The notes below the pieces were generated by a model that was given only the letters and a program-made list of their open reading frames with translations, made no database searches and was not told the origin of the DNA. The position numbers and the translations under genes are program-made. Below are positions 1-27,346 of a stretch of DNA of 29,679 nucleotides, one piece after another. This stretch comes from Spirogloea muscicola (lineage: Eukaryota > Streptophyta > Zygnematophyceae > Spirogloeales > Spirogloeaceae). The stretch spans positions 1,124,080 to 1,153,758 of the forward strand of contig WELB01000009.1 of the NCBI GenBank assembly GCA_009602725.1, given 5' to 3'. Every line of letters starts with the position of its first letter. The stretch's first letter is position 1.

Positions 1-659
<659 letters not shown>

Positions 660-1815: not shown

Positions 1816-2801
1816 ATATGATAGCCACCACCTTGTAATGGCCCCTTGCTTGGAGGTATTTGACCCTTTCCGGCCCCTTTCGACCGTGTCAACTTTCTGG
1901 GCTGCTTAATCTAGTGCCTACCGATAATTCTCTTAAAACCTGGACTGGCAATAACATTGTGCTCTGACCAACTACAGCAGCTTCATATGTATGCCTGGAT
2001 TAGTGCCTGCATGCTTCTCGCTCTGCGGGAGTGGTGCAAATAGCAGCTAAAAGGTGCGATACGCTTGTCAGAGGTGTAAGCCTGCACTAAGCTTGGCCTG
2101 CGTTGAGAGGAAGAGCTGAAGAGTGACGAGCTCCAAAGGTCGCCCAAGTTGATTGCTGGCGTCCCAGTGTAGACGCACTTTGCAACATTGCTCTTCAATC
2201 TTGTTTCTGGGATGGCCAATTACTGCCATCGCCCCCCACTGGAAGAGTCTATCTCTCTCAGCAGATAAGCTTGACAATCCACTGTGCATATATCTGGTCT
2301 AGAGTGAGGCAGCAAGCAGGCGAGATGCAAACTACGCCCAAAAATCCTCACCTAAATCTCAATCGCTCTGCTCTGCGCTCAATGCTTGTGCTTGTGAGAG
2401 ATGCCCAAGTTTGCCACAGCTGCCGAATACAGAAGATTAAGCAACATGTAATTGCTCTTTCATAGACCATAACTAGCATGCCAAGATTCAGTAAGCAATG
2501 TACCAATCCTCCAAGCGACGAATGTATACTGTTCAGCATCGTTTCTTCTTACGACATTCCATCAATCAAATTCCTCTTGAAATTCTACATCTGCAATCCT
2601 TTATGCCTGAACCGATGGTCAACATGTATATGCATTATTGTAAATTTGCTTCGTGGCATGTGTGGGCAGCACAGCTTAGCTGCCCACCCATTAGGACACA
2701 ATTAAATTTGTCCATCAGCCCTACTGAGGGAATGAACAAATATTTTGTGAAACTTAAGTGCCAATGCTTGGGCACTTGCAAAGAGATAGGCAGCACATTG
2801 T
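1816..2801. other. Intergenic region between two 3' ends
   Basis: This stretch lies between the stop of the plus-strand CHRD-like gene and the stop of the minus-strand LIG6-like gene, so the two are convergent and it should hold both 3' UTRs. I see only short open frames with no recognisable family, no repeats of note and no RNA gene. AT content is higher than in the neighbouring exons. Confidence 0.6.
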
Positions 2802-5800: not shown

Positions 5801-8800
5801 ATCGTATCTGCACACACTCTCCCCTTATTAAGCTTCATAAATATTCATGAAAACTTTTCCAACCAAGTGCAAATGCCTGCCTAAGCTGCCCTTCCAGTCA
5901 AGGAACCCTGTCCTTCTGACAGAGCCAAGAGGAGAGGCTGCCACAGAGAGGTATTGACTGGACGCATGTGAATCCTGAGCCGATTGTACCATCTATACTG
6001 CAGGGCCTTGGACTCTGAGCACAAAGTCTCAATTGGGTTGGAGGGCGTGTATACGTACTTGTATTCACAGGTGAATGCTTGACCTTGGAACCTCTTCAAC
6101 ACCTCTGGTGTGCCATTGGTTATCCTGCAGATACGCATGATGGCCAAATTCACACCATGATTGGAGCATGCAAGTTCTTGTTTACTAATTTCTCCTCCTC
6201 AGTTGCTCGGCGACAACTATTTTGACAAGTTTCAAACAAGGGCTTGCACAACCTTCTTAATCATAAGGTCTGAACTTCCAGAGACATGTTACAGATGGCA
6301 ATCCAAGCAAGTCAAGCGGTTCATGCGCAAGACACTAATATCCCCTGATTAATTGAGCACAGAGCGAGCGCTGACATTTTTTGCTCGCGCATCTTGCAGC
6401 AAACACGAGCAACTCAAATTTGACCTCTAGTTGCACCATGCATGCCTGTTCACCATGGTAAGTTACTGACAGAAGTACAAGCAAAAGGGACAAAACCTGC
6501 GAAAACAAGCAACAGATTACGCACTTGGCCAGCATAGGCTTGATGGGCGTGCCGGGTGACACGACACCGGCCGCGGCCATGGCCTCCACCCCTCCCTCCA
6601 TCATGGCAGGCACCAGCAGATCCTGTGCAAATATGCTCAATGAGCACCCCACAGGGACGAGCCCGCATGTTCTTGACTTGTCTTGCATTTGCATGCAACG
6701 TGGTTATGCAAAGCAGGTTCACTGCTGAATGACAGCCCACATCCCTTATGATTTATCGATGTTGCAAGTTCAGAGCTGCTGACACTGCTTGGACTGCGTG
6801 CTGCGACCACCTACCAGGTTCGGCAAGTAATTGTAGGCCTCCACAGCAGCAGCAGCTGCAGTCTGTCTCATGACAGCCAGGCAAATTAAGGTCAGCTATG
6901 CCGTTCAGCATTCGCAAACCGACACACAACAACTTTGAGGTATGTGGAAGCAGCAAGCTAAGCACAAGGTTGTCCTCAGGGTTCCAAGATCATTCTGCGG
7001 TGCAAAGACCTGCAGCTGTGGCTTCAAGATGTCGACAGCTGCAACTGGAGCACGGTGAATGAGGACTGCCTGCGCCAGAGCTGGAAGCACAGTTCTGATG
7101 TTTGCACCGATCCGCATATTTTGCACCTGGAGAAAAGTTGGATAGTTGAGCAAGTAACACATGGCACATGTATATTTAACACATTGCAGCTAAGGAGAAA
7201 TCCCTCCTCAGAGATTTCACGGAGGTATGGGCTCAATCTCTCTAATTGTCTGTGCTTGAGTGCATGTGGGGGGCTTCCATAATCGAGATACTTGGTGCAC
7301 ATACGAGCGTGCGAACAAGGAACTGTGTCTCCTTCTCCCGACATGCTCTCAGGAGGCCCATAATGAGAGCCTTCTTCCTTGCGCCACTGCCGCTTCCACT
7401 CTCCTTGCTAAATTGGTATTGTAACCAAGAATGCATGAATAGATTTATCAGACTTCAAATGCACCTGCTTTGAATTGTCCACCAGTAGCAAATAAGGCAC
7501 ACGCATGCAGCACATTGATGGAAGGGCTTGGTCAGTCACCTGATCTTCATGAGGGTGGAGAACACCTGCTGTATCGTGAGCGGGGGGAATGCAAATAGCA
7601 TGCCCTGCGTCTGGCGGCAAGCCTGTGCCGCATCCCCTGCGTAGCAGGCAAACACACGACCCATGCAATAACACTGTGAACTCCCTCAAGGACATTACAA
7701 GTGAGTAGCACCACAGCACACATGAGTGAGAATGGCATATTGCAGCTTGGATGGACCAGCACTTCAAGTAAAGGCATAGGGACGCTCGTATCCCCGAGTG
7801 GTTTCAGATGTGTGGGACTACTTACCAAGATCGCCAGTGGATGTGTACAATTCCCGGATTCGGCTCCGAGGAATGCCAGTTGCTCCAACCACGGCCTCGG
7901 CGACTGTACTTCCGCCAACATTCAGATCCTGTAACAGCAATTTGGTGATACATTACGTGGCATGGCTGGGAGTATTGTGGGAAATTGAAGGCCCTTCTAA
8001 AACGGGGGCTAGGAAGGAGAGCTTCATAGACCTGGCTGCCCTTAACTTTGACATTGAGAGGGGCTAATTGCTTACCACGTTCTGAAAGTCAGGGGCAAGC
8101 TTGTTGAGCGCGAGGTAGAGGGCAGGTAACACGTCAGCTGGTGTAAGTGCGAGCAAGCTGCACCACAGGAAGGGCAGCATATGCACCTTAAGTCACTTAG
8201 CTTGACATAAGTGCTCACAGATTTTTTACTGGTCGCACTGAACAATGTATAGCATCGCGCTCATCTTGCATGCACTAATCGGAGCAGCAGAGGGCCTCAA
8301 AGAGAGCAGACCTGCGAAACATGTTGCAGAGCATGTCGGTGCTCTTGAGCCGCCCGCTCTCCTTCTCGAGCACCTCGAATGTCCTTGCCAGGTGCAGATA
8401 AGGCGCGGGCTCCCCGGCAGACCAACAAGCTGCAAATGTCAAGAATCGCATGAGGTGCAAAATGCAGGCACTAATCTAGTAGGTGACTATTATACATGAT
8501 TCCTGCCCTCTGGTTGCCAAGCCCTGATGCTGACCTATGGCAATATATATCAATTTTGCTGTCATTATCTGTAACAAGCTGCGATGGATCTTTGGAAGCA
8601 ATGACCGTTTCTGCTGTGCTTAGGCACATGGATGTCTGACCGTGCTCCACAGGCTTGTACTTGCTGGTGGCAAGAGAGATGGCCCAGCGGTTCTCCTCGC
8701 TGGCCTGCGGTTTTGTCAGCGCCAGCACCGCAGCGCGGCCGTCATCCAGCGCTGGAGTGACATCCTCACTGAGAGTGGCAGCCATGCCATCTTTCTGAGA

Positions 8801-11800
8801 GCCCACAACAGCACTGAGAACCTCCTTCCCATTTATGGTGCCTCGGTGCTCTCCTCCAGCTTTGCCAGATGGGTTTTGGAGGACAACAGTAGCCGCGTCC
8901 GCTGTGGGAGGCGCACCACTCGGCCTCTCCTCGCTAGCATCCCCAGAACTGTAGAACAGGTTTACAGCCATGTTGACATTCCAGTCGGTCAGGCTCAGCA
9001 GGTCCCGCGCCTTGTCGGCCGTCACGGAAGCCCCCAGGACCAGCAGGAGCTGCTCCAAGGCCTTTCCTGAGCCCTCGGCTGCGCCGACCTCTGGCGACGG
9101 CTTGTCAAAGAACCTCAGAATTGACGGCTGCTGGTCTCCTCGTGCGCCATTGCTGGGCACTCTGCGCCTTCCCCTGCCTCTCTCGGCCTTCTCTTTGGGG
9201 CTCGCCATGGCCGCCCGCCTCGCTGCCGCTGCTGCAGGACCCGGCGATGGCGTCCGAGGCCCATCACTCGTTGGTCCCAAGCTCGGCGGCGTCCCAAATG
9301 ACTGGAGGTCCTCCTCACGAGCCGTCCCATTTGGCCTCTCGACAACACTTTCGTGTCCCTCTTCTTGGCAGCTCTGAACGTCACTTTGTAAGTCAATGGT
9401 GCAGACTGTCGAGTCGAAGAAGAGGCTCACGGCCTTGGTGACATCGCCGCCGGCCTGCGTGATGAGCCCCTGGAGCACGTCACGCGACACACTCTGCGGA
9501 AGTATGGCCTTGAGCTCGTCGAGTGGACCAGGCACAGTCTTGGCTGCCCTCGTTCCGTCACAACTTGTTGCCAAGTCTATAGCTCTCATGGGGCCCTCCT
9601 CCCATGTAATCTCCGTGTCACGTTCTGATGGCACCTCCATATTCTCCAGCTTAGGTGCAGCCATGGCAGCTGCCTCGACCTGCCGGTGTCGCTTCCGCGC
9701 ACCTCGGCCGAAGGCTACTACTGGCGGCGATGCAGCCTCAGTAGGCTCACGGTCGGCGGCAGATAATGGCGGCTTCCGTGAGCTCCGGCGGAGGCCGCTA
9801 CCACCGGCAGCCTGCTGCTGCCCGCTAGTGGACCCCGGCCCCGGCCCTGCACGGCTTGGCGACCCCTTCCGATCCTCCATGTCTTGATCTTCGCCATGCT
9901 CATTCTCAGTCACACTGATGCCAGTTCCCTCGTCCAGTGAAGGCCGTAATTTCTCCTCGAATGGCATTGTGATGTACTGCTTCTTGCCATTCTTCAGTTT
10001 GTTCTCACTGGGTGCCCCACTCACCACAGTGAGGGGCAGCGAAGCATCAGGCTCGTCGGGACGACATCGTGACAGGGATGTCAGGAAGCGCCTCTTGCTG
10101 GCCGTCTCATCCACTAAGTTGCGGAAGTGCTTGCGCATTGTTGCCACCGCCTTGCTGCCCATGTCGCTCCCTGCATCTCCAACAGGCAATCCTTGACAAC
10201 CGCAATCTCCCAGGAATTGCCTCAGTCCTAAGCAGATCAATCTTGTTTTTCACAACTTCAGAATGTCTTTGATGATGTTCTGACAGTGATGTGACGTCGG
10301 CCCTGCTTAGACTTCATGAAGCAGAGAGGTGCACAAGATGTTCTGACATTAAGTGCCAAGCCCATCTCCCCTTCATTGTTCCAAGACTGTGGCTTGATGG
10401 AATACAACCGAAACCCCAAGCTTGATGTGCTCGTCCCAAAAACAACCTGCATATCCATTACTGCCAAGAGATGTCGATCTCACCCTCAATACCAACTGTT
10501 GGTATAATCTGGTGAGGCCGCAGATAACGCACATACTCTCGCAGCTCATCGTAGTTGGAATGCTCGCTGTATGGCACCAGATGGATTTCAAATGGGCCCT
10601 GCAGGGCAAGTCTTTGAGAACACAGTCAAAGCTATCACACTGATAATCATCTGACATGTCACATTCACAACCACTGCACCTGGCAATGCACAGCTGCGCA
10701 GACACAAAGCATTAGACACATCAATTGTTTAAAGTGCTGCACAGTGGCGCATGTCAGTTGTTTGTCACAACCTCAATTTGACCAGGTTAGGCACTCCCAC
10801 CTTGCGTCGCACGGAGAAAGTCTTCTTCTTGACCTCATATGTCCACCCTGTGGGCACGAAGCCCACAACTCGCTTGTAACCAGCGCTGCGCTGCATCGCC
10901 CTTGCCATGTTCTTGAAGTTGGGCCGGAAGAAGGGCCAGGTTTCCCCCAGGAAGCTCCATCCCACCACATGCACCCTGGCAATAGTCGCCAAAGTCCACC
11001 ATGGTGTCAAAGCAGAATCTCTAGGCAGAAGTCAGAACAGAGTGTGATCAGTACTTGACAAGACCCCGGCACCTTGTGGCTGTCGGGTCGGTCGTGAAAA
11101 TGCTCATGTCCTCGAGGCCGAGGCAGCCGAGGATCGCAAGCTTGCGCTCCGTGACGTGGAGCTGGCAGCCGCAGCGCCGCGCCACGGCAGTGAGGATCTT
11201 CTCCTTGCCGATGACATATGTGGATAGCAGATACAGAGTGCCGCCAGCCGCCTTCCCGGAGGCCTGCGGCAAGGACGGTGGCGGTAAGGCACTGAGCTCG
11301 TCTTCGTCCACCTCGCAGGTCTCTGGCACCGGCAGGTCTGGCCTGGCGGCAGAAGCCGGCGTCGGCTCCAGCCCCTCTCCACCCAACCCATCCTCTCCGC
11401 CCCCCTCTTCCTCATCTCCTCCCTCTTCCCCTCCTTCCTCCTCCTCCAGCCTGCTCTCCTGCACGCCTGCCTCGCCTCCCTCTCCTTCAGTGGGCACGTT
11501 GCTGTCTGCGTCCGCTGCGCCACCACTGTCCTGCTTGACGCCCTCCTCGCTCTGCATGAGTTGGTGGACGGTGTCGGCGACGTAGGCCACCGACTCCGCC
11601 TGGTCCGGGAACACATATCGAGGGTTGCAGTACGTGGTGTCCAGGAACACGGCATCAGCACCGACGAAGGCTGCCAGGTGGGGATCGGCCCGCATCGCCG
11701 AATCGTAGCGCATGTCGCCCACGTGCACGTACCTGCAGCCGGACGTCGCACACAGTACCACCAGGTCACTGTCTGCACATACCATCTGCCTCCAATAGCA

Positions 11801-13674
11801 TCGCGAATCTAAAGCAATCACCGTGACCAGAGTCCCTATGACTATCAATGACATTGACATTTCTAAATCAAACTGCATCAGCACAAATAGGTTAGTGGCG
11901 AGCGGCACGAGCAGCGGCCCCCTGAGCTGCAGCTCAGCCCCAGCACAGCTGACTCTGTCAGCCGCCAGAACCCTCGTTACCGAGGTGTGGGTCTGCAGAT
12001 GGTGCCTGCGCGTGGGCTCCCCGGGGATGCGGAAGAGGAACTGCACGGCGCCGGGGCAGTGGTTGGCGTCCACCATCGTCACCTCCACGCCGTCCACCTG
12101 CAGAGGCGGCAGAAGCTGGGGTCGTGAGCACTGCCTGTCCACGCCTTCCCAAGCCGTTCCCTCCAGCCTTCTCAAGCCATTCCAAGAGGTCCTAAGGGCC
12201 TCTGACTGCCGACTCGACCCGAAGCAAGCAATTGCAGGCCTGTCCAGTGCCTATCTACGCTTTCCCAAGCCCATCCTCAGCCTTGTCCAGCTTTTCCAAG
12301 AGCTTCTAAAGGCCTTCAGCGGCCGATTCGAGCCAACGCAAGCTGTGCAAGCCTTTCTTAAATGCCTATTCATCCTGGCATGACCAATCTGCTCACAGCT
12401 CCGTAGTCCTTCCCAAAGTGCCAGCAGCCTGCTGCAGCAGAGCCCGACATGTTTTGGGGGTTCAGGAATGAGGGTGAGGGTTGGGGTTTAGCGTTCAGGG
12501 CGAGCAGATGGCACGGCGGGCCGACGCCTAACCGTGAATGATTGATCCATAACCCGAACCCCCCAAACCGAAACGGAAGACTGAACAAGGTCCAAAGCAG
12601 AAGACGCTTGCAGTAGAGGGCGATGGCTGTGAGCGGCCAGCCCAGGAAGAGGGATGGATAAATAACGGTCTCTGACGAGTCATGTGCCAAGTGGAGGGGA
12701 CCTGGAAGGGCGCGGCGAGCGGCGCGGCGCGGAGGAGCGGGCGCGGGAGGCCGAGCGCCAGCGCCACCAGCCGCGCCGTCGTGGGCGAGCAGAAGACGAG
12801 GCCGCCGCGCCAGCCCGCCGTCAGCCCCGCGTAGTGGTCCGCGTGGAAGTGCGACAAAAAGTAGGCGCGGCTCCAGGCGCCGCCGTCGCCGCCGCCGCCG
12901 CCGCCGCCGCGGAAGCCGTCGACCACGAAGCGCGTCCCCGGGATGAGCTTGTACGACGGCAGGCCCGGCGGGGGCGCCGCCNNNNNNNNNNNNNNNNNNN
13001 NNNNNNNNNNNNNNNNNNNNNNNNNNNNNNNNNNNNNNNNNNNNNNNNNNNNNNNNNNNNNNNNNNNNNNNNNNNNNNNNNNNNNNNNNNNNNNNNNNNN
13101 NNNNNNNNNNNNNNNNNNNNNNNNNNNNNNNNNNNNNNNNNNNNNNNNNNNNNNNNNNNNNNNNNNNNNNNNNNNNNNNNNNNNNNNNNNNNNNNNNNNN
13201 NNNNNNNNNNNNNNNNNNNNNNNNNNNNNNNNNNNNNNNNNNNNNNNNNNNNNNNNNNNNNNNNNNNNNNNNNNNNNNNNNNNNNNNNNNNNNNNNNNNN
13301 NNNNNNNNNNNNNNNNNNNNNNNNNNNNNNNNNNNNNNNNNNNNNNNNNNNNNNNNNNNNNNNNNNNNNNNNNNNNNNNNNNNNNNNNNNNNNNNNNNNN
13401 NNNNNNNNNNNNNNNNNNNNNNNNNNNNNNNNNNNNNNNNNNNNNNNNNNNNNNNNNNNNNNNNNNNNNNNNNNNNNNNNNNNNNNNNNNNNNNNNNNNN
13501 NNNNNNNNNNNNNNNNNNNNNNNNNNNNNNNNNNNNNNNNNNGGCGCCGCCGGCGGGGAGCCGGGAGCCGCCTCCCGGCGGAGGCGCGGCTGCCGAGCTC
13601 GGCGCCAGCCTGCCCTGGAGCCCCGTCGACGCCGTGTGGGAGGTGCGGCCCCGGACCTGCAGCAGCCCCGCCAT
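2802..13674 (-). CDS. LIG6: SNM1/beta-CASP nuclease fused to ATP-dependent DNA ligase (LIG6-like)
   Basis: About 25 exons: (13674-12702, cut by the N gap), 12097-12006, 11732-11073, 10975-10801, 10598-10484, 10170-8641, 8429-8312, 8157-8076, 7928-7826, 7636-7540, 7407-7305, 7126-7010, 6862-6815, 6622-6525, 6124-6059, 5807-5648, 5341-5231, 5039-4990, 4736-4702, 4556-4495, 4228-4073, 3962-3874, 3789-3690, 3471-3354, 3175-2802. Exons 2-25 alone give about 1,550 residues, and all phases join. The N-terminal SNM1 nuclease keeps HFHADH (12834-12851), [12 protein letters not shown] (family HTGD), FVPTGWTYE and [13 protein letters not shown] linker in the 1,530-base exon 6 carries UBA-like helices and a PIP box. 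The ligase has the DNA-binding domain ([12 protein letters not shown]...LCNMFR), nucleotidyl-transfer motif KYDGQR, DSEV, EGVMVK (4127-4144), SDSWLKVKKDY and an OB-fold ending [15 protein letters not shown]. Plant LIG6 combines end-processing and nick-sealing in one nuclear repair protein. The start is uncertain because of the gap. Confidence 0.93.
8641..10170 (-). other. LIG6 linker exon: UBA-like / PIP box / UBA-like
   Basis: This single exon joins the nuclease to the ligase. It begins with the end of the SNM1 domain ([21 protein letters not shown]) and ends at the first residues of the ligase (KYKPVEH, then ACW in the next exon). Between them are basic stretches such as [10 protein letters not shown] and GRGRRRV, which could act as nuclear localisation signals. 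Two short helical segments have UBA/CUE-like endings: [14 protein letters not shown] (segment 9523-9411) and [14 protein letters not shown] (segment 9061-8939). Between these lies QPSILRFF (9130-9107), which fits the PCNA-interacting PIP-box pattern QxxIxxFF exactly. The reading is that the protein may be recruited by PCNA and by ubiquitin or a ubiquitinated partner. That is inference from motifs, not from a domain search. Confidence 0.72.
12098..12701 (-). other. LIG6 intron 1 with retroelement 3' fragment
   Basis: This intron of about 600 bases is bounded by a weak donor (GTCCCC after ...APFQ) and a strong acceptor (CCTCTGCAG). At 12580-12650 it holds a piece related to the retroelement cluster at 20-24 kb. 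CAGTAGAGGGCGATGGCTGT (from 12612), continuing GA, recurs at about 23734-23755 and is followed in both places by relatives of the GGCTGTGAnnnGCCAGCCC hairpin. The element sequence is in the same orientation as the copies in the cluster. Confidence 0.7.
12885..12912 (-). repeat. GCC-repeat coding a glycine run in LIG6
   Basis: A (GCC)n trinucleotide run on the plus strand reads as about seven consecutive glycines on the minus strand. It sits between VDGFR and [11 protein letters not shown] of the metallo-beta-lactamase fold. Homologues have a short variable loop here, so a glycine expansion is likely to be tolerated. The tract lies next to the assembly gap. Confidence 0.85.
12982..13542. other. 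Assembly gap (561 N) inside LIG6 exon 1
   Basis: A run of 561 Ns in very GC-rich DNA. Both edges carry the same nine bases, GGCGCCGCC (12973-12981 and 13543-13551), so the gap may partly be a failure to join a repeat. The proposed start at 13674 is not in frame with the nuclease exon if the Ns are taken literally. Either the gap length is arbitrary, an intron lies inside, or the start is elsewhere. Confidence 0.97.
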
Positions 13675-13945
13675 GGTGCCTGAATTGACATATTTATGAT
13701 CATTAGGAATTGAACCTCGTACCTGAACCTTGAAACTCTTAAGGAGCGCCGAGGAAAGACATCCCAACTGCAGCCTCCGCGAAGCAGCAATCCTGCCAAT
13801 GCGCCAAACCCCTTAAACCCTCAGAGCTCATGACGCCCACACCCGTCGAACCTCAGATCTGAAAACCTCAACTCTTAACTCTGGGTGAGGGGCTGACACC
13901 CCACCTGCAGCTCGTGGGCGGCAGCAGGCCTCGGAGGCGGACGCC
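13675..13945. promoter_or_regulatory. Shared upstream region between LIG6 and ycf21-like gene
   Basis: The proposed starts of the minus-strand LIG6 gene and the plus-strand Ycf21-like gene are only about 270 bases apart, so this region probably contains both promoters or a bidirectional one. No TATA box stands out. CACCTGCAG at 13900-13910 resembles a plus-strand splice acceptor, so part of this interval could be the 3' end of an intron in a longer ycf21-like transcript. Confidence 0.5.
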
Positions 13946-15037
13946 ATGGCCAGCAGCGCGCTGCGGCGGCGGCTCGCGCCGCCCTGGCGCGTCCTGCTGC
14001 TCAGCGACGGCTCCGTGACGCGCCACCTGCAGCTCCTCGCCGACTGCGGCGCCATCGCCGCCGACTGTTTCCAGATGGCGCCGATTGGGCACAGCGTCGT
14101 CGGCCTCCCGCCTGCCGTCGCCCTCATCCCGGGGCCCCGCCTGCAACGCCAGGTGCGCTGGTGCCGCCAGCAGACCCCCCTGTCAGCAGCCCTTGTGTTG
14201 CATTGTTGTTGACCTTATTATAGATGGTAGTAAGCACTATCTACAAGTAGTTGATGCATTGCAGTCGAGGTGATGGCGCAGTGTCTCAGCAGTATGTTGC
14301 TAGTGTAGGCCGGAGTCAGGTCAAGACTTATGTAGTTGAGTCAGTGCGTGCTTGCTGAAGCAGGTGTTCCTGCGGAGCTCCTCGGGGCAGGCGTTGGTGT
14401 ACGCAGCATCGTGGTGGGCCACCGATACGGCGGCAGCGGTCCTTCAGCAGGTTCAGCGGCCCATGTGGGTGAGCCTAAGCGCGCAACGCGCCGAGCTCTT
14501 CCGTGATGTCCAGCGTCTCTACCTCGGCTACTCCAAGCCACTTGAGAGGTATGCGCGTCTGCGGGTTTTCTTGGACCCTTTGCTTCAATCTGGCCTGCAG
14601 TCACCTCACTCCTACTTGATAAGTCACGAAGTCTCTGAGCAGCCAACAGCCAGACAATTCATGCTGGACGGATTTTCAATATTGCTTATGCCAACCTGCC
14701 GCTGTCAGACCTGACGGAACCAGTAGCGGATTGTTCCAGGATCCCTACTGTCTGACTCATGATGTACTTTCATGGGTAATTTGGTGGCAGTATTTGACCT
14801 TCATTCCCACATAGTCACCTTACACTTCAATCTCGAGCTCACGGTGAGTCACAGTGAGTCATGTGCAGGGCGTTTGGCACAGAAGGCCCCTTTTGGGCGA
14901 GGCACTACGTGTTCTACCGCGATGGCAAGGCCATCACACTGATCTACGAGGTCTTCTCGCCCGCACTTGACCAATACCTTGGTCCATCAGAGCTTGACAA
15001 GCATTCATCACTAGGCCTGCCATCGCAGCCTTCCTGA
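13946..15037 (+). CDS. ycf21: Ycf21/DUF98 chorismate-lyase-like protein
   Basis: Three exons: 13946-14152, 14364-14548 and 14869-15037 (186 residues; phases 0, 2). The family pattern is clear: WRVLLLSDGSVTRHLQLL at the start, RLQRQ|VFLRSSSGQALVYAASWW across intron 1, LFRDVQRLYLGYSKPLER|AFGTEGPFWARHYVFY across intron 2, then ITLIYEVFSPALDQYLGP near the end. The family includes Ycf21, encoded in red-algal plastids, and the cyanobacterial chorismate lyase that makes 4-hydroxybenzoate from chorismate. Plants make plastoquinone by another route, so the role here is open. Length matches the bacterial family, which leaves almost no room for a transit peptide. The frame upstream of the ATG is open to a TGA about 60 bases away, with an acceptor-like CTGCAG in it, so an extra 5' exon with a targeting signal is possible. 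Confidence 0.85.
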
Positions 15038-15451
15038 GCACGTCACTTCTGCGATTACGTTACTGTGAAGCACAGTGCTGATAAATGTGTGGTCGCTTCT
15101 GGCTTAAGGACTCGGTCAACTCTCTTTAAAGTGCTGAGCTACAGGGTGCACAAGGGCTACTGGGTGCAGGGTATGCCCATCCTCCCATTGTTTTGAAGCC
15201 TCCGCCTATAGTCTATGGAGCTTGTTGCCAGTATCACAGCTCCATTGGACGTATTAGTGCAGTAGCAGGGGCACAGAGTCGAGAATGTTCCAGCCTCCTA
15301 TGGTTAAGCAAAAAAAGTCCCACCTGAAATCAGCAAACCCCCGCTTTCTCTGTCCACGGTACTTTCATGAATGATATGAGTACATGGCCATGTGCCATAT
15401 GAGCACATGTCTACACTTGCTAAATAAAGCCAGCAATGGCCGGAAGATCTG
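15038..15451. other. Short convergent intergenic region
   Basis: Lies between the stop of the plus-strand ycf21-like gene and the stop of the minus-strand EDEM-like gene, so it holds the two 3' UTRs. Open frames here are short and unrecognised. I see no repeats or RNA genes. Confidence 0.65.
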
Positions 15452-18400
15452 CTATGGAGTGGAGGCAGGGAGGCCGCAGTACTTGGCAGGGCTGCAAATG
15501 CGAGCGCGGCAGCTCTCTGCATCCACTCCGCAGTCGGACTCAATCCGGCAAGTGTGATCACGCCGCCTGTCAGCAACATGGCAGGCGCTCCGGGGGTGCC
15601 AGGCAGTGGACCCTGTGTGCGCACCTGGCCTCAAGTCCGGGCACATGCGGTGGCTCATAGCTGACCCCTTCTTCGACTGTGCAAGAGTTGTCAAGGAGAG
15701 GTTTAGGATTCACATAAACCAGCCCAGTGGCAAGTCCTTTACTGTAAGCATGGACGCTCTTTAACGGCCTTGGAGTCAGTGAATGCTTTGGGACGCTGCA
15801 AACAATTCGAAAGCAGAGCACACCAGAGAGCTCCACCATAAGTCACCTGCTTGCCACGACTGGTGACCGTGACATTGCCAGACTTCGCTCGTTGTCGGTG
15901 CCAGGCCTTGAGCACAGGCAGGGGGTGGCCCTCTGTTGAAAAGATGTAATTCCCTCCTTTCATGAAGGTGTCATCAAAGAGTAGGTATAGGTATTTACAC
16001 CTGCAAGTCTTCTCCACTCAAATTCAGCACTTTTCTTCTCATTGAGCATACTTCACAGGTGTCATCACATTCATACTGTAGGAATAGGTGACAGACTGTG
16101 ATACTGCATATATACCACCAGTAGCAGGATGATCCTATTTGCAGTTGCTGCTTGCAAAATTGCAATTGAGAGGCTGACATGGGCGGGCTGCATACAGGAC
16201 CAGCCTTGAGCAAGAGTAGGACCTCACGTTTCAGCTAGGAAGAAGCTGTGCTGGTGGTCTTCTAACTCCATTGTGGTGACATCACGCACACTAGCAAATC
16301 CTCCAGCTACACGGGTCAACACGTTTAAAGAATTCACAATCGTCCTTCCCACCTCCAGGTACCAGGGATCTGTTCACTGGCTTGGTCAGAGTCAGTGCTA
16401 AGGCCTCCCACTACATGCCACAAATTCCAGCCTCTCAATATCAGATGGAACGCAATGCTTACTCACTCAAGCGCCTTGTATGCAGTATGCAGATCGAATA
16501 GTGCGCCGAGAACCACAGGGGCATGCAATTGATCAATCAGTGAAAAGCAGATGGTGACCTTCACGGCCAAGGAAAAGGTTGGAGTACCTTGTGTTGCCTG
16601 GTACAAAGCAAACGTTGACTCCGCGAGCTCAGGCCTAAGCGGGTAATATCTCTCAGTAGGATGAGGTACTTGGTGGCTGTAAAAGTACCTGTTACAAGGA
16701 CTAGAAAGGGTTCTGAAAAGCTGGACGCAAGTGTCACCCCTTAGGCAAGTGGCGTAGCAGCCACAGGCTGTACAGCCTAGGCACCTGTCTCCTTCACCAG
16801 AAAACGTGAAGAAGGTGCAGTCAAGGAACAAGCATGACCTTTCTGGGAAGATCCCAAACTTCTCCCAGACACTGAAGAAGCTCCGGTGACTCTCATTGGC
16901 AGCAGATACGTCTCCCATCAGGACCTACCACAATATCCCACAAAGACATCCGAGTCAGACCAAACATGAGGAACTGAAGTTCTGCCAACGGAGGGAAGTG
17001 GCCCAGGGGGCACATGCCTTACCTGGACAGCAGGCCAGAAGGCCTGCAGACTAGTGAATTGCAGATGAGTAGGCTGCCCTGTGTGCATGTCTGCTTCATG
17101 GTACCTGAGGTTGTTGATGTATGTCCAGACCACCAACCCATCAACTTTGACTTATCAAACTTACAATGGAAGTTACTCTTCAAGTAGAGGTTTCTATGTA
17201 CACAATAAGCAGCTTCTCCTGGCTCACAGCGTAAGGGATGTGCTGTAGCAGCTTTGCAGGTAAACAAAAGTATGTAAGTCAAATTGCAGATTGAGGCTGA
17301 TTGTACCAGGGCCCTGATCTGTAGTGCTGCTGGACAGCTGAATAGGCCGTCTGGAACATATGCCAGTACTCGTCTTCGCCAAAAAGGATGTGAGCTTTCA
17401 AAAGGTACTCAAAGAAAGAGTCAACACCTGCAGGCACGTGCTACTTTGAGTGACTAAGAAGCTCAGGTGGGTCCTCACTTCGACAATTGAGATCTCATAA
17501 TAGTGACTAGGATCTGTAAGATAGGCGAGCATAATTGATCAAGAGCAAGGTTGAGATTTCAGAGACTTTGAGACTAGCCAAGTTGAGCAGTCATTAAACA
17601 ACGATCTAAGTAGTGGATGAGCAATCATGTGAAGCTACCCAACAATTGTCGAGATACCAGCCAACATGCATCAGCTATTCCAGTGTGGGCAGTGAAATAG
17701 TAGAAGACAAAGTGAACACGAAGGCCATGCTGACGTGATCTATACCTGCCCCTATACCAGAGGATTGTTCAATCCATTCTCCTGTCTCTACATTCAGGGT
17801 TGTGCCAACAAGGTTCAAGCTGCTCCGCATGCCCCACAGCTTTCTAAGAGCTCTGAGGGCAACGGACTCATAGATGTCATTCTTGGTGAGGCGGGATAAG
17901 ATCCCAAACTCGAGGATAAACGATCCTGCAAGAAGACGGCCAAAGAGACAATTGCCTTTGGTCAATGTCCTACAAGACTTCTGAACACAAATGGAAAAGG
18001 AAAAGGCTTGAGTTCTGGCACAATAGAGAAAGAGAAAAACAATATGAGGTGAGCACACTCCCTAAGCCTGATATCTGATTGATAGCAGATCCAGCAAAGT
18101 CAATCATTACTGACATCTACAGAAAGTCCTAAAGTAGATTTTACCACAGCCTGCCGTGCTTGTCTCTGCTGTTTCATTTTCCCTGACACCGTGCTGCACA
18201 CACGCCAGCTCATGCAGGTCAGAAGGATGCAGAAGGATGATCTCCTTACTTATGTCATGTCGTAAGGAGCTTTATCCAAGCACTCAAATACACTATCTGA
18301 CATCAATACCAACAAAACATGAGTGCATGTGCACGCACTTGTGGTGGATCCGTGGAGCCAATACACTTGCCTTGAGATTGACCCAAGCATATGGGATGCC

Positions 18401-20013
18401 TGTGGGACTCTGGAAAGCTGGAAGAAGGCGCCGTCCTAGATCCTCTGCCAGTACCAGGAGGCGCCCGTCATACCACTTTTGAAGCAACTTGCTCCCAGGA
18501 CTCTTGGCTAGTAGATGTGCCGAAAGCAATCCTCCCAGTATGCGAATATTACACTGTCATGCACACTAGATACACATGTCAGGCTGACCACAAACATGCA
18601 CCGCTTTCACACCTATGTGGTTGTCTTACTGTGTCTGTGACATGTGTGTCTGTGTCCGAGGCTGGTCCCTAAGCTAATACGCACTTGCATGTGAACATTG
18701 GATCAAATCTTTACCTCAAACACATTGACCCGCACATCAGTATCAAAAGAAATGGATTTGCTGAGCCATTCTATGGACTTCTCAAATTCTGATCCATTTC
18801 CAAGCACTGCAAGACTGCCAGCTATGGAGCTTGTCAGTTTGTCATATGTCCTGTACACATGAAGAAATCTTGGACGGCAGACAGATTCAGAACTCCACAT
18901 ATATATGAAGGTCTTTGATTCACCTTGTCAAGGAATCTATAAGGGTGAGAGCTGTTCCATTGTATGTCTCAGACAAATGCTCCAACTGCATCATGTCACG
19001 GAGTAAAGCAGGTTACACAAAGTCAAGTATATCCCACTTCAGAAGATATCACAGGACAGAGGATGCAGTAAGCACAGGTACACCGACTATACAACAGTGT
19101 GATTGTTTTCTAACAGAGGGCTGTTTATGAGAATTGTATTAACATGTGAATGTCAAATACCTGCAGATTGCCAAGCTCCCCAAGGGAGTCCGTGTACGAC
19201 TTCGTCAGAGGTTTCAGCTCGTCGTGCTATCACCAAGTGCGCAGAGTAACCCCTCAATCAGCTCTCATCCACAGCCTTGTGATCATTTGGCTTGCCACGT
19301 ATTCACACAAGGTTGGATGATACATCTTGTGTAAGTTCCCTTCAAGGTCTGGCTTGCAGCAGTTGTCTGGTTCTGTGAGCTTCAATCAGCCAGACTATGC
19401 AATTCGCTGTCCTCATTAGCCAGCTTGGACGAGCTTCCACTTACAGGAAAAGCGTGCAGCATGTAGTTGTCATAAGCGTGGTAGAACCTGTGTAAAGCGC
19501 AAAATTGTCTGGCACTAATTAAAAAAGAGGTGCAGGGTAAATAGTACACAGTGAAGCGTGCAAAATAATATAAGCAATTCGGGAGGACAGGCAAGCGACC
19601 ACTCTATAATTCTTAGCACGAAGACGAGCCACGACGTCTGGTATCACTGGATGATGAAGGGAAAGGGATGTGAATAGGGATGAAAGGAACGACTGTGAAT
19701 CTGATCTGTTACGATATCTGCTTTCTCCACTGATAGAGCTTGGCGAAAAACAGCAATCAATGTCGAATTGCTGTGGAAAAGCGACGGCCGCTCGTCGTGG
19801 ACAAGTCATTGGCCACAATGGAAGGTAGAGTGGTTCGCAATTGTCGCTTTAGATGGGCAGCTATTGGCCTCGAACAAGGAGGAAAGGCGCGTACATCTGG
19901 CGGACGTCCTCTCGTAGCGCCGCCTTGTCCTCCAGGAGCATGGCCATCGCAGAGCGCGCGGCGAGGACGAGCAGGAGGAGCAGCCGCGCGAGCGGGAAGC
20001 AGCCCCCCACCAT
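15452..20013 (-). CDS. EDEM: EDEM-type GH47 alpha-mannosidase-like protein
   Basis: Fifteen exons: 20013-19895, 19487-19445, 19226-19161, 18985-18924, 18814-18715, 18553-18371, 18193-18145, 17925-17746, 17427-17307, 17104-17023, 16924-16839, 16688-16588, 16369-16228, 16000-15847, 15676-15452; 570 residues. The start at 20013 was chosen because it opens a signal peptide (PLARLLLLLVLAARSAMA); the frame is open further upstream. GH47/EDEM blocks follow in order: RQMFYHAYDNYMLHAFP, HDELKPL...LGNLQ, LTLIDSL, SIEWLSK..FDTDVRVNVFE, RLLPAFQSPTGIPYAWVNLK, ETSTAGCG, LEFGILSRLT, GIGAGVDSFFEYLLKA, SLQAFWPAVQVLMGDV, FPERYFY, YYPLRPELAEST, GGFASVRDVTT, ETCKYLYLLFDD and NYIFSTEGHPLP. EDEM proteins act in the ER on misfolded glycoproteins and direct them to degradation. 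The tail adds a cysteine motif (TCRIESDCGVDAESCRAR...KYCGL), as in one of the two plant EDEM types as I remember them. The closest match is EDEM1-like. There is no KDEL. Confidence 0.94.
18194..18370 (-). other. GC-AG intron in the EDEM-like gene
   Basis: The exon ending ...WVNLK is followed on the minus strand by AAG|GCAAGT, a textbook GC-type donor, and the acceptor is GTGTGTGCAG. Removing this intron joins WVNLK to HGVRENETAETSTAG in phase 0, exactly as in EDEM relatives. No GT donor nearby gives a working frame. Confidence 0.88.
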
Positions 20014-20224
20014 CGCCGGCAGCCCTGCGGAGGGCCTCCGGCACCATGGGCGGCGCCGCGAGAGGACCTCCCGCTGTCGAAGCTCCGCCGTCGCAGAGGC
20101 GGGCAGTGGCTGCCACGCCGCCAGTGGCGCCGCCTGTGGCGCGAGGCCGCCACGCCGAGGCTGGTCGCCGCTCTGGAGTAGGACCCGTCTGATCAGGTCA
20201 GAAGTAGGTCGCTGCATACAAATA
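20014..20224 (-). promoter_or_regulatory. EDEM 5' leader and upstream region
   Basis: The EDEM reading frame stays open upstream to an ATG at about 20217, but the extra residues are proline- and arginine-rich and would bury the signal peptide, so I treat this as 5' UTR or promoter. It directly abuts the 3' terminus of the first retroelement copy (TTAATACACACGCATT in element orientation), leaving at most about 200 bases of native upstream DNA. Confidence 0.5.
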
Positions 20225-20226
20225 AT

Positions 20227-20397
20227 AATGCGTGTGTATTAAGAGATGGGGAGGCCATGTGTGGCCAAGTACAAAGGCAAGCACATTGGACAAATGTACG
20301 TCACCTGCTGCTAAGCTGATCCGCTCAGTAACCACGAGTCAGCACATAAAATGCGTGTGTATTAAGAGATGGGGAGGCCATGTGTGGCCAAGTACAT
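20227..20397. repeat. Direct repeat of retroelement 3' terminus
   Basis: AATGCGTGTGTATTAAGAGA (plus strand), continuing into TGGGGAGGCCATGTGTGGCCAAGTACA, occurs at 20227-20273 and again at 20350-20396. Between them is the fragment that encodes only YVLTRGY and a stop. A longer unit, AGTACAAAGGCAAGCACATT on to CAGTAACCACGAGTCAGCAC, also occurs at about 20268-20345 and 20545-20622. These mark at least two tandem 3' ends of the element. Confidence 0.85.
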
Positions 20398-20601
20398 ATT
20401 TAGGCCGAGGCTATTTCTCGCTTCAGCGGGAAAGAGCTTGCCCATTGAGGATAGGGGCTGGAACAGCCAGCCCAAAAAAGAATGAGCAGAGTACAAGAAG
20501 CCCAAGAAGAAGGGGGCCAGGCGAAGCACTAAGGCGAAGCACTAAGTACAAAGGCAAGCACATTGGACAAATGTACGTCACCTGCTGCTAAGCTGATCCG
20601 C

Positions 20602-21045
20602 TCAGTAACCACGAGTCAGCACATAGAGGTCGCTAGCTGACGCTCGAATACCGGACGGCTAGCTCTTGTGCCAGCAGCTAAGGCTCGACCAGCTTTCTGA
20701 TGCAGAGCATTCGCCTGAGCTCGCTGCAGAGAGGTTGACACTCGACGTCGCAGAAATGACAGATAGGCTGCCGGCATACCCATCTGGGCTGGGAGCATAT
20801 CCTCGCGTCTTGCATATCCCAGACTCGCTATGTTCCTCGAGTAGGGTATGGAAGCGAGGACCCAAGCAGCCGAAAGTGTCGATTGCAGCCGGGAGGAGGT
20901 GGTCACTGCGGGGAATACAAAGGTCCGGGTGATCGACAAAAAGTGGCTCTCTCAAACGAAGAATGTGCTCGCCCAGAGAAAAGATGAATTTTCGTGTATT
21001 TGAAACAAACGAAGGCCAAATGGCCAAGTACAAAGGCAAGCACAT
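20602..21045 (-). pseudogene. Retroelement ORF C-terminus, frameshifted copy
   Basis: A second remnant of the same ORF: LLPAAIDTFGCLGPRFHTLLEEHSE in one frame, then SFLRRRVSTSLQRAQANALHQKAGRALAA in another, then ASDLYVLTRGY and a stop in a third. At least two frameshifts and a stop separate the blocks, so it is clearly dead. It is more diverged than the copy at 22781-23190. Confidence 0.66.
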
Positions 21046-21443
21046 CTAAGACCTATATAACCTACAACAGAATGAAGAAAGAGCTCGCCCACTCAGGATA
21101 GGGGCTGGAACAGCCAGCCCAAAGAAGAATGAGCAGAGTACAAGAAGCCCAAGAAGAAGGGGGCCAGGCGAAGCACTAAGGCGAAGCACTAAGAAAGAAG
21201 CACACAAGAAGAAACAAAGCAGCTACTAACTACTCAGTAACCCCTGCTAAGCAGGAATGACCCAATCAGTACCCGCGGGTCAAAACATAAAGGTCGCTAA
21301 TCGATGCCTGAGAAAAGAGGGGCTGGCAGAAGCCAGCCGGAAAAGAATGGACAAAATCCAAAGAGCTCCAACAGATGCCAGAAAGAAGGGGAAAGACACA
21401 GCTAGGCATCTAGACAAGTAGACACGACGAATCCACAGGAAGC

Positions 21444-21610
21444 TCAATACCCGCGGGTGAGCAACATCAGGTCAGAATAGCTCGAAGCTGGAAAAGAAGC
21501 ATTCAGACGCGACCCAGAAGCAGCCCCGAGAGCGCGGCCTGCACGCGAGTGGACGGCATGGGCGAGCACTTTCTCATGGGCGCGGGAGCGTTGGAGGGAC
21601 ACGAAGAAAA
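21444..21610 (-). pseudogene. Retroelement ORF end, short copy
   Basis: Reads VSLQRSRAHEKVLAHAVHSR, then AGRALGAASGSRLNASFPAS and SYSDLMLLTRGY with a stop at 21444. It is truncated at its 5' side, where it runs into 3' UTR sequence of another copy with the hairpin GGCTGTGAGAGGCCAGCC near 21631. Confidence 0.66.
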
Positions 21611-22295
21611 GCTCTTCCCAAATCACGGCAATGGCTGTGAGAGGCCAGCCAAAAGGAATGTACAGGGCTCTTTCAAGGCGATGGAAAAGCGTGTGCAGTA
21701 AGAGATGAAGGGCCTGTGTGGCCAGGGGTGCGAGGGCTGTGAAAAGCCAGCCCAGAAAAAGTGACAATTGGACAATTTGTTCGGTGGATCTAGACAAGCG
21801 TCTAACTGTCGGGGTCGACTTGTATGAAAAGAGGGCGGGCGGTGCGCATAAGATGGAAGTGATGCCAAAGCAAGCCACTACACTGTGGATGAAGAACAAG
21901 GGGAAACAGAGGACTTTTACCATTGCGTGGAAGCTACGAAAGGGTACTTGATTACCTCAGTGGGCTTACGCAAAGGCCACCATAGCGGCTAGCTGCGTGG
22001 GAGCTATACGCAAATGTAGAAGTGATGAATCGAAGCAGCTTCTGCTAAAGGGAGCGAGGGCTGTGAAATGCCAGCCCACAACTAAGAGGCACATCCAGCA
22101 GGCAGGCATCCTTTCGTCTCTACTCTTTCCTGCTCCTTTGCTTTCATTCTTTGCTCATTCTTTTGTGTCCTCCAACACAAGGCAAGGGCTGTGAATAGCC
22201 AGCCCAGAAAGAATGGACAAGGTCTGAAGAGCCGAAAGAAAGAAGAAAGGCACCTAGACCACACAAACATGCAAGAGACTACAACGGATGGGAGC

Positions 22296-22412
22296 TTAGT
22301 AACCCCGTGTTAGCAGCAGCAAGTCGGAGTGACTGGCAGCTTGAGAAGAGGCACCCCAACGAGACCCGAAGCAACAGCCATAGCGCGGCCTGCCCTCAAT
22401 GGGCAAGCATTC
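22296..22412 (-). pseudogene. Retroelement ORF end, very short copy
   Basis: Contains RAGRAMAVASG in one frame and ASHSDLLLLTRGY plus TAA in another, so it carries a small frameshift. Its 5' side abuts the 3' UTR of the next copy (whose stop is at 22482) near 22425, where the shared UTR sequence GGCCCCC stops matching. Confidence 0.6.
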
Positions 22413-22780
22413 TATTCTAGGGGGCCAGGGGAAGCGCTAAGAAAGACAAGCACGCAAAGAAACGAAGCAGCTACGAATCACTCAGTACCCCCTGCTAAGC
22501 AGGCGCAGGCCAGGGGAAGCGCTAAGCGCTAAGCGCTAAGAAAGGGGCTCTCGAAAGGGGGAGGGCTGTGATAAGCCAGCCCAAAATAGTGGACAAGGCC
22601 CAAAGCGTCCCCCTGTTGGAACGTGGAGGCAGCAGCCAAGACGAAGAAGAAAGAGCTCGCCCATTGAGGATAGGGGCTGGAACAGCCAGCCCAAAAAAGA
22701 ATGGACAAAGTACGAGAAGGGAGCCAGGGGAAGCGCTAAGAAAAACAAGCACAAGAAGAAACAAAGCAGCAACGAATGAC

Positions 22781-23190
22781 TCAGTAATTCCTGCTGAGCA
22801 GCCGCAGATCAGAGATGCTAGGGTCCTGGAAGTGGGTCCCCTGGACAGAGCCAGAGGCAGCAGCTAGGGCTCTCCCGGCACGAAGGTGCAGCGCACGGGC
22901 CATGGACCTCTGCAGCGAGACGGCCAAGCGCATGCGATACACTTGCGCCAGCGACCCGGCTGCAGGAAAGTCTACCGGTTCACCATGGAAGCGACAGGCG
23001 ATTGCGTGGCGGGCGAGCTGGTTAAGTAGCTCAAGTCACCGAGCGCCCAGTGCCCCATGGATGTCAATTGCCAACGGGAAGAACTCGTCTTCCGGCGGAT
23101 GGTCGGCGTACTTGATCTCTTTTGCCCGAGCGGCGCAGGCGACCGCATACCCAGCCTTGGTGGCCAAGACGCGGCCTGCTCGGCAGTGCA
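22781..23190 (-). pseudogene. Retroelement ORF C-terminus, one in-frame stop
   Basis: The longest coding remnant of the cluster, about 135 residues. It reads through HCRAGRVLATKAG, EIKYADHPPEDEFFPLAIDIHGALGAR, an in-frame TGA, then LELLNQLARHAIACRFHG, AGSLAQVYRMRLAVSLQRS, ALHLRAGRALAAASGS and finally SISDLRLLSRNY and a stop. The block FFPLAIDIHGALG followed by a ...SLQR...RAGRA helix resembles what lies downstream of reverse transcriptase in some plant and algal non-LTR elements; that comparison is from memory. Only one stop and no frameshift make it the youngest-looking copy here. Confidence 0.7.
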
Positions 23191-23214
23191 AAAGCCAAGG
23201 AACGCTGCAGAGAA

Positions 23215-23322
23215 AAGTTGGCTCTTTCAAGGGGGCGAGGCTGTGAAAAGTCAGCTCCATGGCGTTTTAAGTTGGCTCTTTCAAGGGGGCGAGGCTGTGA
23301 AAAGTCAGCTCCATGGCGTTTT
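23215..23322. repeat. Perfect 54-bp tandem duplication
   Basis: Two identical 54-base units (23215-23268 and 23269-23322) begin AAGTTGGCTCTTTCAAGGGG and end CCATGGCGTTTT. Each holds the hairpin-like element GGCTGTGAAAAGTCAGCT. Perfect identity inside an otherwise diverged cluster points to a recent local duplication or an assembly artefact. Confidence 0.95.
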
Positions 23323-23895
23323 GAAGCCGGGCAGATCGCTATGTTGGAAGAGCTATTCTTCCAAGAGACGTAAGGGGCTCTTCTAAGGACTAAGACATCA
23401 AACGAGGCGAGGGCTGTGAAAGAAGTGGCTCTCCCCATTGGGGCAAGGGCTGTGCTCAGACAAAGCACACAGCGCGCAGAGGAATCTAGCTAGGTGCCTC
23501 CGCTTGAGCTGGTCAAATCGAAGCCGTCGGTGATCCACTTGACGCCTGCGATCTCCTGTCTTCAAGCTCTGGTGTCCACGCTCCGCTAAGAAATGGGCAA
23601 CAGCCCGACACGAGCTTCGCTCGGGCGGAAGCCTCGCCTCGGATTGGGCAGCAGCGGTGGCCAATGGCGGGCTTGCCAGGTTGCCGATGAAATAATTCTG
23701 CCGGGTAAATGGTACATGAGAAGGACGGCCCTTCCAGTAGAGGGCGATGGCTGTGATCGACGGAAAAGATCGTGTATTAGAAAGAAATGTAGGCCATGGG
23801 ACGGAAGGACTCTTCCGACCCATATAGAAAGAATCAACGAATGGCAAGTAATAGAATTCGAAACGGCCAGGAAAAGGGTACATAATAATTACCAC

Positions 23896-23968
23896 AGCGC
23901 CACCGGGCGCCAGTAGCTTAGTTAGCTAGCTCCCCGCACCTTACGCGACCGCGGCGGCGGCGGCGGCC
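23896..23968 (+). promoter_or_regulatory. Upstream region of ATP synthase beta gene
   Basis: Only about 70 bases separate the repeat-rich DNA from the first ATG of the ATP synthase beta gene, and part of that is a (GCG)n run. No TATA box is evident. The promoter of this essential gene must either be very compact or lie within the repeat-derived DNA. Confidence 0.4.

Positions 23969-27346
<3,378 letters not shown>

Follow-up and report, generated by a model that had tools for sequence, protein, structure and literature searches.

The nearest precedent for the array described here is the Zepp and Zepp-like clusters of long interspersed nuclear elements (LINEs) in green algae. Zepp is an L1-type element, and the original Chlorella study reportedly described copies of this non-long-terminal-repeat (non-LTR) retrotransposon nested in one another. 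For the trebouxiophyte alga Coccomyxa, the relevant parts of one report describe nested non-LTR copies gathered in clusters that are probably centromeric and number about one per chromosome (PMC3446292). The array under study is a one-way run of retrotransposon 3' ends in Spirogloea muscicola, where it occupies the intergenic space at about positions 20000-24000 of a 29.7-kb stretch (C9:1124080-1153758, hereafter the window) of the eukaryotic assembly that was searched (153.1 Mb in 471 contigs). Nesting of non-LTR copies in one another is common to this array and to the Coccomyxa clusters as portrayed in those parts of the report. In contrast, the ends found here were dispersed over many contigs and both strands rather than gathered into about one cluster per chromosome, and the array lies between two ordinary genes. 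Additionally, no apurinic/apyrimidinic (AP) endonuclease was detected by a Pfam search at E up to 1 in the open reading frame (ORF) of L079, a long copy of the family labelled A, whereas Zepp is of the L1 type.

Other described systems resemble the array in single respects. Insertion of Alu or LINE copies into the A-rich tails of earlier copies gives same-direction stacks, and template jumping by R2 would give head-to-tail joins of 3' ends. Retroelement tails appear to serve as landing sites here as well, but these are pyrimidine tracts, not poly(A), and belong to several families; joins between 3' ends in head-to-tail order were also found, although several of them are nested with target-site duplications. 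Among the elements with a restriction-like endonuclease (RLE), the sections of PMC4640811 on Utopia and HERO describe a Utopia layout of a single ORF with an N-terminal zinc finger, a central reverse transcriptase and a C-terminal finger plus conserved domain, a HERO clade holding many non-specific families, and occasional tandem Utopia insertions. The domain order of the present elements appears similar to the one given there, with putative terminal fingers and a putative RLE from residues read by eye, while their target is a loose pyrimidine tract and not a gene. The pattern as a whole was not described in any of the papers listed by the literature searches, judged by titles and abstract openings, mostly outside subscription journals.

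We read the array, with a probability of roughly 0.8, as a nested pile of severely 5'-truncated copies from several related non-LTR families, built up through target-primed insertion at pyrimidine-rich sites. The copies belong to several families, labelled A, B/F, C, D, and G, and not to one element. A first-pass annotation of the window had reported seven or eight retroelement 3' ends in one direction. The single direction held, while the count was too low: a search with 3'-end profiles identified 17 signatures in 20.2-23.8 kb, each at E ≤ 1e-3 and all on the minus strand, and two in the remainder of the window, one per strand. The profiles for C, D, E, F, and G were built without window copies, and the A profile included the window A ends via the sampled loci L001 and L009. 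The one-way array is thereby confirmed as real, and it had been understated. On the minus strand, the eight frames that close with LTRGY, LSRGY, or LSRNY before the stop were recovered exactly where they had been placed, at 20325, 20602, 21234, 21266, 21444, 22296, 22482, and 22781, the last of them ending LSRNY, and a script scan of both strands found no further frame of this kind in the window. Their spacing of 32-852 bases is irregular and showed no regular period, as had been argued against a simple satellite. In this stretch TRF returned a 54-bp two-copy repeat, two short 13-bp repeats, and nothing else. The contents of the array are as follows, with element boundaries chosen by eye from alignment coverage and 3' untranslated region abbreviated as 3' UTR.

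20227..20348, minus strand: A copy 1, 122 nt, with the last seven codons (YVLTRGY) and the 3' UTR; stop at 20325; 3' terminus TTAATACACACGCATT
20349..20913, minus strand: A copy 2, stop at 20602; 5'-truncated in the ORF, split by a C-type insert, abutting copy 1
20397..20543, minus strand: C-type 3' end (C2 subfamily) in A copy 2; flanks repeat TGTACTT
20987..21307, minus strand: A2 copy, stop at 21266; UTR ends AAATACACGAAAATT; within a B/F-type 3' end, with duplication TCTTTTCTC
21076..21254, minus strand: C2 copy, stop at 21234; in A2 just after its stop codon; flanks repeat TCATTC
21308..21566, minus strand: B/F-type copy, stop at 21444; 3' terminus resumes at about 20986-20955, past the nested A2 (by eye)
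21605..21669, minus strand: G-type 3' end (profile E 6e-12)
21687..21725, minus strand: A-type 3' fragment of 39 nt within a D-type 3' end (profile E 1e-4)
21726..21766, minus strand: D-type 3' end, split by the 39-nt A fragment (profile)
22039..22088, minus strand: D-type 3' end (profile)
22178..22393, minus strand: B-type copy with a D-like 3' end; stop at 22296
22419..22513, minus strand: C-type fragment, stop at 22482; lacks its 3' terminus
22542..22587, minus strand: D-type 3' end; upstream part at about 23165-23214, split by a C copy
about 22645..23164, minus strand: C copy, stop at 22781 (LSRNY), in a D-type copy; flanks repeat CGTCTTG
23215..23322, minus strand: two D-type 3' ends, a perfect 54-bp tandem duplication
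23419..23454, minus strand: D-type 3' end (profile)
23719..23758, minus strand: G-type 3' end; an A-like UTR end comes before it, at about 23796-23769

The junction that had drawn attention, with TTAATACACACGCATT, a T, and TATGTGCTGACTCG leading into YVLTRGY-stop, is present at about 20350/20348. The last 122 nt of family A (20348-20227) recurred with 98-99% identity at 36 other places among the best 40 of 2,717 scored candidates, and the C copy at 22645..23164 shares 97.5-98.5% identity with its closest sampled copies. A fixed 122-nt unit amplified as a satellite or as a short interspersed nuclear element (SINE) was considered and rejected because other copies reach upstream to varying lengths. 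Directly after the C-type fragment that is missing its own 3' terminus, an antisense snippet of the C 3' end occupies 22389-22418.

Five nested insertions in the window carry target-site duplications of 6-9 nt, where the chance of each is how often random flanks from the same region match over an equal or greater length. These are CGTCTTG around the C copy in the D-type copy (0.018), TCTTTTCTC around the A2 copy in the B/F-type 3' end (0.005), TCATTC around the C2 copy in A2 (0.049), TTTGTAT around the two abutting A copies taken together (20913-20227; 0.021), and TGTACTT around the C2 piece in the upstream A copy (0.019). Beyond the window, one site at L071, CTATCATG, was used twice in the same direction, by an A and a C copy, and its sequence stands ahead of A, again between the two copies, and once more behind C. 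Among 66 A insertions, 11 had duplications scoring at least 8, against 0.7 in shuffled pairs. The proposal that elements inserted repeatedly around 3' ends by target priming is thus supported, but not that the target is simply the element's own 3' end: hosts and guests in the window mostly belong to different families, and some insertions are internal. In three cases additional bases lie between the element 3' end and the duplicated target: 33 nt at the C2 piece (20397-20429, mostly unmatched in sampled loci), 14 nt at L036, and 6 nt at L007. These may represent read-through into the flank of the source copy or untemplated addition.

The same bias of strand was found at other sampled loci. The 22-nt A terminus CATCTCTTAATACACACGCATT has 90 exact genomic places, both window copies included, of which 50 were read with their flanks in addition to loci from other genome searches; the counts leave out any copy that contains N, touches the edge of a locus, or has an incomplete 3' end. 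The counts of neighbour strand, 5' junctions, and pyrimidine-matched controls exclude the window, and one copy remained unmatched in the matched control. The A copy sets used below (73, 66, and 66) include up to two window copies (L039), the 73 also include L079, and the 66 C copies include three from the window. Of adjacent 3' ends separated by 60-250 bp, 99 pairs shared a strand and 34 lay on opposite strands (p 1.5e-8), a bias that fell to 51 vs 31 at 250-500 bp and to 29 vs 29 beyond 500 bp. Below 60 bp the counts were 40 and 28, some of which may come from a single palindromic hairpin that was scored on each strand. The other sampled loci hold a mean of 1.9 ends per kb, which is not a genome average because the presence of an A or C copy was the criterion for choosing the loci. 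Runs of eight to nine same-strand ends within about 3 kb occur at L057, L076, L078, and L015; the window array is therefore dense but not unique. Family C, with the terminus ...GGGCTGGCTGTTCCAGCCCCTATCCTCAATGGGCGAGCTCTTTCT, has 2,780 exact 3'-end sites genome-wide (1416 forward, 1364 reverse). The first 100 of these in contig order, a sample not picked by neighbourhood, included five same-strand pairs and one opposite-strand pair within 500 bp, counted by hand, where uniform placement would give an estimated one pair or so. Additionally, four C ends follow one another on the minus strand at C2:571270-572058.

Insertions also tended to begin near the 3' ends of other copies. For 63 A and 61 C copies, a start between -20 and +25 nt of a same-strand 3' terminus was found in 25 of 124 cases, and near an opposite-strand terminus in none of the 124, which supports repeated insertion around 3' ends at other loci. 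Random positions in the same loci gave expectations of 4.7 and 4.8, respectively, and controls matched for pyrimidine content in both flanks gave 11.4 and 2.8 (same-strand excess p 3e-4). Pyrimidine preference hence accounts for about half of the 3'-end starts (11.4 of 25), which tempers the proposed 3'-end preference, and a roughly two-fold excess remains. In a tighter interval (-6 to +14), 14 starts were seen against 6.9 expected from matched controls (p 0.012), and family C by itself gave nine against 3.5 (p 0.010). Scoring of empty sites placed 13 of 66 A insertions within a same-strand 3' end of another family, compared with 3.3 at random and 6.8 (of 62) in the pyrimidine-matched control (p about 0.02). 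These hits vary with the threshold, from 14 at 10 bits through 13 at 14-18 bits to nine at 30 bits, for random expectations of 3.5, 3.2-3.3, and 2.2.

The composition of the target was similar in both families. A pyrimidine (C/T) occupied positions +1 to +4 past the 3' end in 65, 62, 62, and 56 of 73 A copies and in 62, 56, 53, and 42 of 66 C copies, and the C/T share dropped to about 50-64% by +6 to +8. Insertion flanks were 65% pyrimidine upstream and 75% downstream, as opposed to 50% in controls, and duplications often start with a CCTT-like sequence. Most of the element tails share this composition on the sense strand, with 72% pyrimidine in the C 3' UTR and 63-69% in the D-G ends, but only 58% in the A 3' UTR. 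The minus strand of the array is 59% pyrimidine, compared with 50% at window positions 1-20000.

Truncation at the 5' side, noted before for several window copies, was extreme: 24 of the 50 A copies with the exact 22-nt terminus are shorter than 130 nt, and nine are only 25-36 nt long. L042, L053, L064, and L039 copy 2 were set aside, as their measured lengths are too short where extension was stopped by divergence or a nested insert, and the length of L038 (23 nt) is uncertain. Five of these nine, A micro-copies of 33-36 nt (L030, L046, L055, L057, and L076), begin within the loop of a terminal hairpin, GGCC..GGCC, as would be seen if the RNA ended or reverse transcription halted at that point. 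Recurrent A starts were observed at query positions 3913-3918 in L002, L044, L045, L047, L056, L061, and the window. At C15:765454, C38:95344, C62:466, and C77:7533, with the L045 join among them, a C 3' terminus is joined to an A tail starting TATGTGCTG, and these four joins carry three different letters in the C end. The recurrent starts may stem from microhomology with pyrimidine targets.

These observations suggest the following course of events. A copy would enter by target-primed reverse transcription at a pyrimidine-rich site, the sense strand of which is often CCTT- or CTTTCT-like, with the nick presumably placed on the strand opposite the pyrimidine tract. Reverse transcription would begin at the 3' end of the element and often halt within tens to a few hundred bases, and insertion would preserve or duplicate the pyrimidine tract. 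Old copies could then supply new sites in the same strand orientation. Ends would pile up in one direction because the pyrimidine-rich tails of older copies offer same-orientation sites; a strand-specific preference for pyrimidine tracts would turn many earlier copies into targets, and this would explain the single direction. Part of the repetition, namely the 54-bp repeat and perhaps the A dimer formed by copies 1 and 2, would reflect local tandem duplication. Direct support comes from the fixed 3' termini, the extreme 5' truncation, the target-site duplications at multiple levels, the same-strand bias, and the pyrimidine context, and pyrimidine-tract targeting is probably a large part of what drives the direction-locked nesting. 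The array is a real and well-marked case, ordinary in kind.

Several results weigh against this account. Family A alone showed no excess over matched controls in the tight interval (five starts vs 3.5, p 0.27), and its 3' UTR is barely richer in pyrimidine than its ORF (58% vs 56%). Most copies have no clear duplication, with 43 of 66 A insertions scoring below 6. In the window, two pieces, the 39-nt A fragment and A copy 1 taken by itself, are flanked by nothing more than 4-nt matches at chance level (0.40 each), so neither shows a significant duplication. Furthermore, the window chances given above are optimistic because the boundaries were set by eye, and some duplications are offset by several nucleotides from the element ends, by up to 4 nt in the window.

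The elements are non-LTR retrotransposons, and membership is claimed no further. The assignment rests on an ORF with reverse transcriptase, a common 3' end, varying 5' ends, and 5'-truncated copies with target-site duplications. A genome-wide search for a full-length element, as the first-pass annotation had advised, recovered a 1267-aa open frame in eight of 150 listed family A places, L079 among them. The L079 ORF matched reverse transcriptase (RVT_1, E 1e-18) and, at its N-terminus, zf-C2HC_2 at 20.5 bits, below the cut-off of 27; Pfam at E up to 1 gave nothing else. The missing AP endonuclease hit agrees with the RLE-type group (R2/R4/NeSL/CRE/HERO). Matches of the reverse transcriptase in PDB were similarly weak for group II intron, R2, and L1 enzymes. 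The C-terminal 271 residues of L079 share 41% identity with their family C counterpart, and both C-termini carry C-x-C..H..C followed by R..D..D..K..Y, which we take, from residues read by eye, to be a putative finger and a putative RLE of the R2/HERO type. A PDB profile search with the two-sequence profile of this C-terminal domain returned no match. Judging from the sequence, this putative C-terminal RLE would be the nicking enzyme.

A more specific version of the proposed mechanism draws on the related 3' ends D, E, F, and G, which share a GGGCTGG..CAGCC hairpin and a pyrimidine-rich end. The shared stem-loop end would act both as the start of reverse transcription and as a mutually preferred landing site, and each insertion would renew a strand-oriented safe harbour, with tails of 25-500 nt stacking one way at dispersed sites. 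We hold this version as tentative, and on balance doubtful.

Template jumping, in which the reverse transcriptase leaves a truncated RNA for the 3' end of another and lays down head-to-tail ends in one event, is an improbable source of the whole array, though it has several points in its favour. Seven pairs of copies from the same family lie directly side by side, to within 5 nt (the window A dimer, L047, L002, L048, L062, L076, and L017), and TTTGTAT flanks the whole window dimer and not copy 1 alone. Nine close same-family pairs (three A and six C, with gaps of -2 to 31 nt) were ranked by similarity: the neighbour was the best match (tied) in two pairs, the second-best in another, and plainly more distant than other copies in the remaining six, as would be expected from different RNAs. 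However, several window copies are split rather than abutted, five of them with duplications and with host and guest families that differ, and L071 retains target DNA between its copies.

Tandem duplication of 3' ends, the other origin that had been suggested, would proceed at the DNA level through unequal exchange or slippage; it is very unlikely to have made the array. The two 54-bp units at 23215-23322 match perfectly and are plainly in tandem. The two window A ends are identical over their overlap, the C2 insert aside, and share the variant GCGGATCAGC, which has only one other exact place (C190:5498). A second dimer with the same start, at C141 (L002), has in both units a one-base deletion missing from the other loci compared; the ends of its two units are not the same, and in similarity the neighbour comes 44th when set against 58 other copies. 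The irregular spacing, the differing families, and the nested insertions with duplications speak against tandem duplication as the general process, as do the six of nine close pairs, the C141 pair included, in which the neighbour is not the closest copy. The possibility that all abutting ends are tandem duplications was rejected for most of them on the same ranking. Tandem duplication is insufficient for most of the array but likely for one or two junctions, the 54-bp repeat and perhaps the identical A ends. For the window dimer, a local tandem duplication of 123 bp or a single-event template jump is favoured over two independent insertions, because the ends are identical, the rare variant is common to both, and the duplication flanks the dimer as a unit and not copy 1.

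An assembly artefact of collapsed or chimeric repeats, conceivable in a repeat-rich genome of 471 contigs, can be set aside as highly improbable, since the array stretch contains no N and since nested duplications, together with the same pattern at many independent loci, are unexpected from misassembly.

The genes on either side of the array are as follows.

16463..16924, minus strand: Pfam domain match of a GH47-like gene, the start of which was placed by eye from ORFs at about 20010
from about 23950, plus strand: mitochondrial ATP synthase beta gene, matched by many mitochondrial enzymes

The array is antisense to the ATP synthase beta gene. An Rfam search of the window gave no RNA family reaching its gathering score, and a Pfam search on the ORF tails within the window gave nothing informative. 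Elsewhere in the window, a 114-bp repeat of 1.8 copies lies at 12132-12343, and a run of 561 N at 12982-13542 falls within open frames.

Preferring the account of nested, target-primed insertion at pyrimidine-rich sites, we suggest that a loosely targeted retrotransposon may, even when its site specificity is not strict, yield a direction-locked pattern that reinforces itself. For old copies to become targets, the strand composition of the tails may suffice. A genome with thousands of copies lets target choice, 5' truncation, and target-site duplication be measured, and the same genome could separate the contributions of composition and 3'-end recognition.

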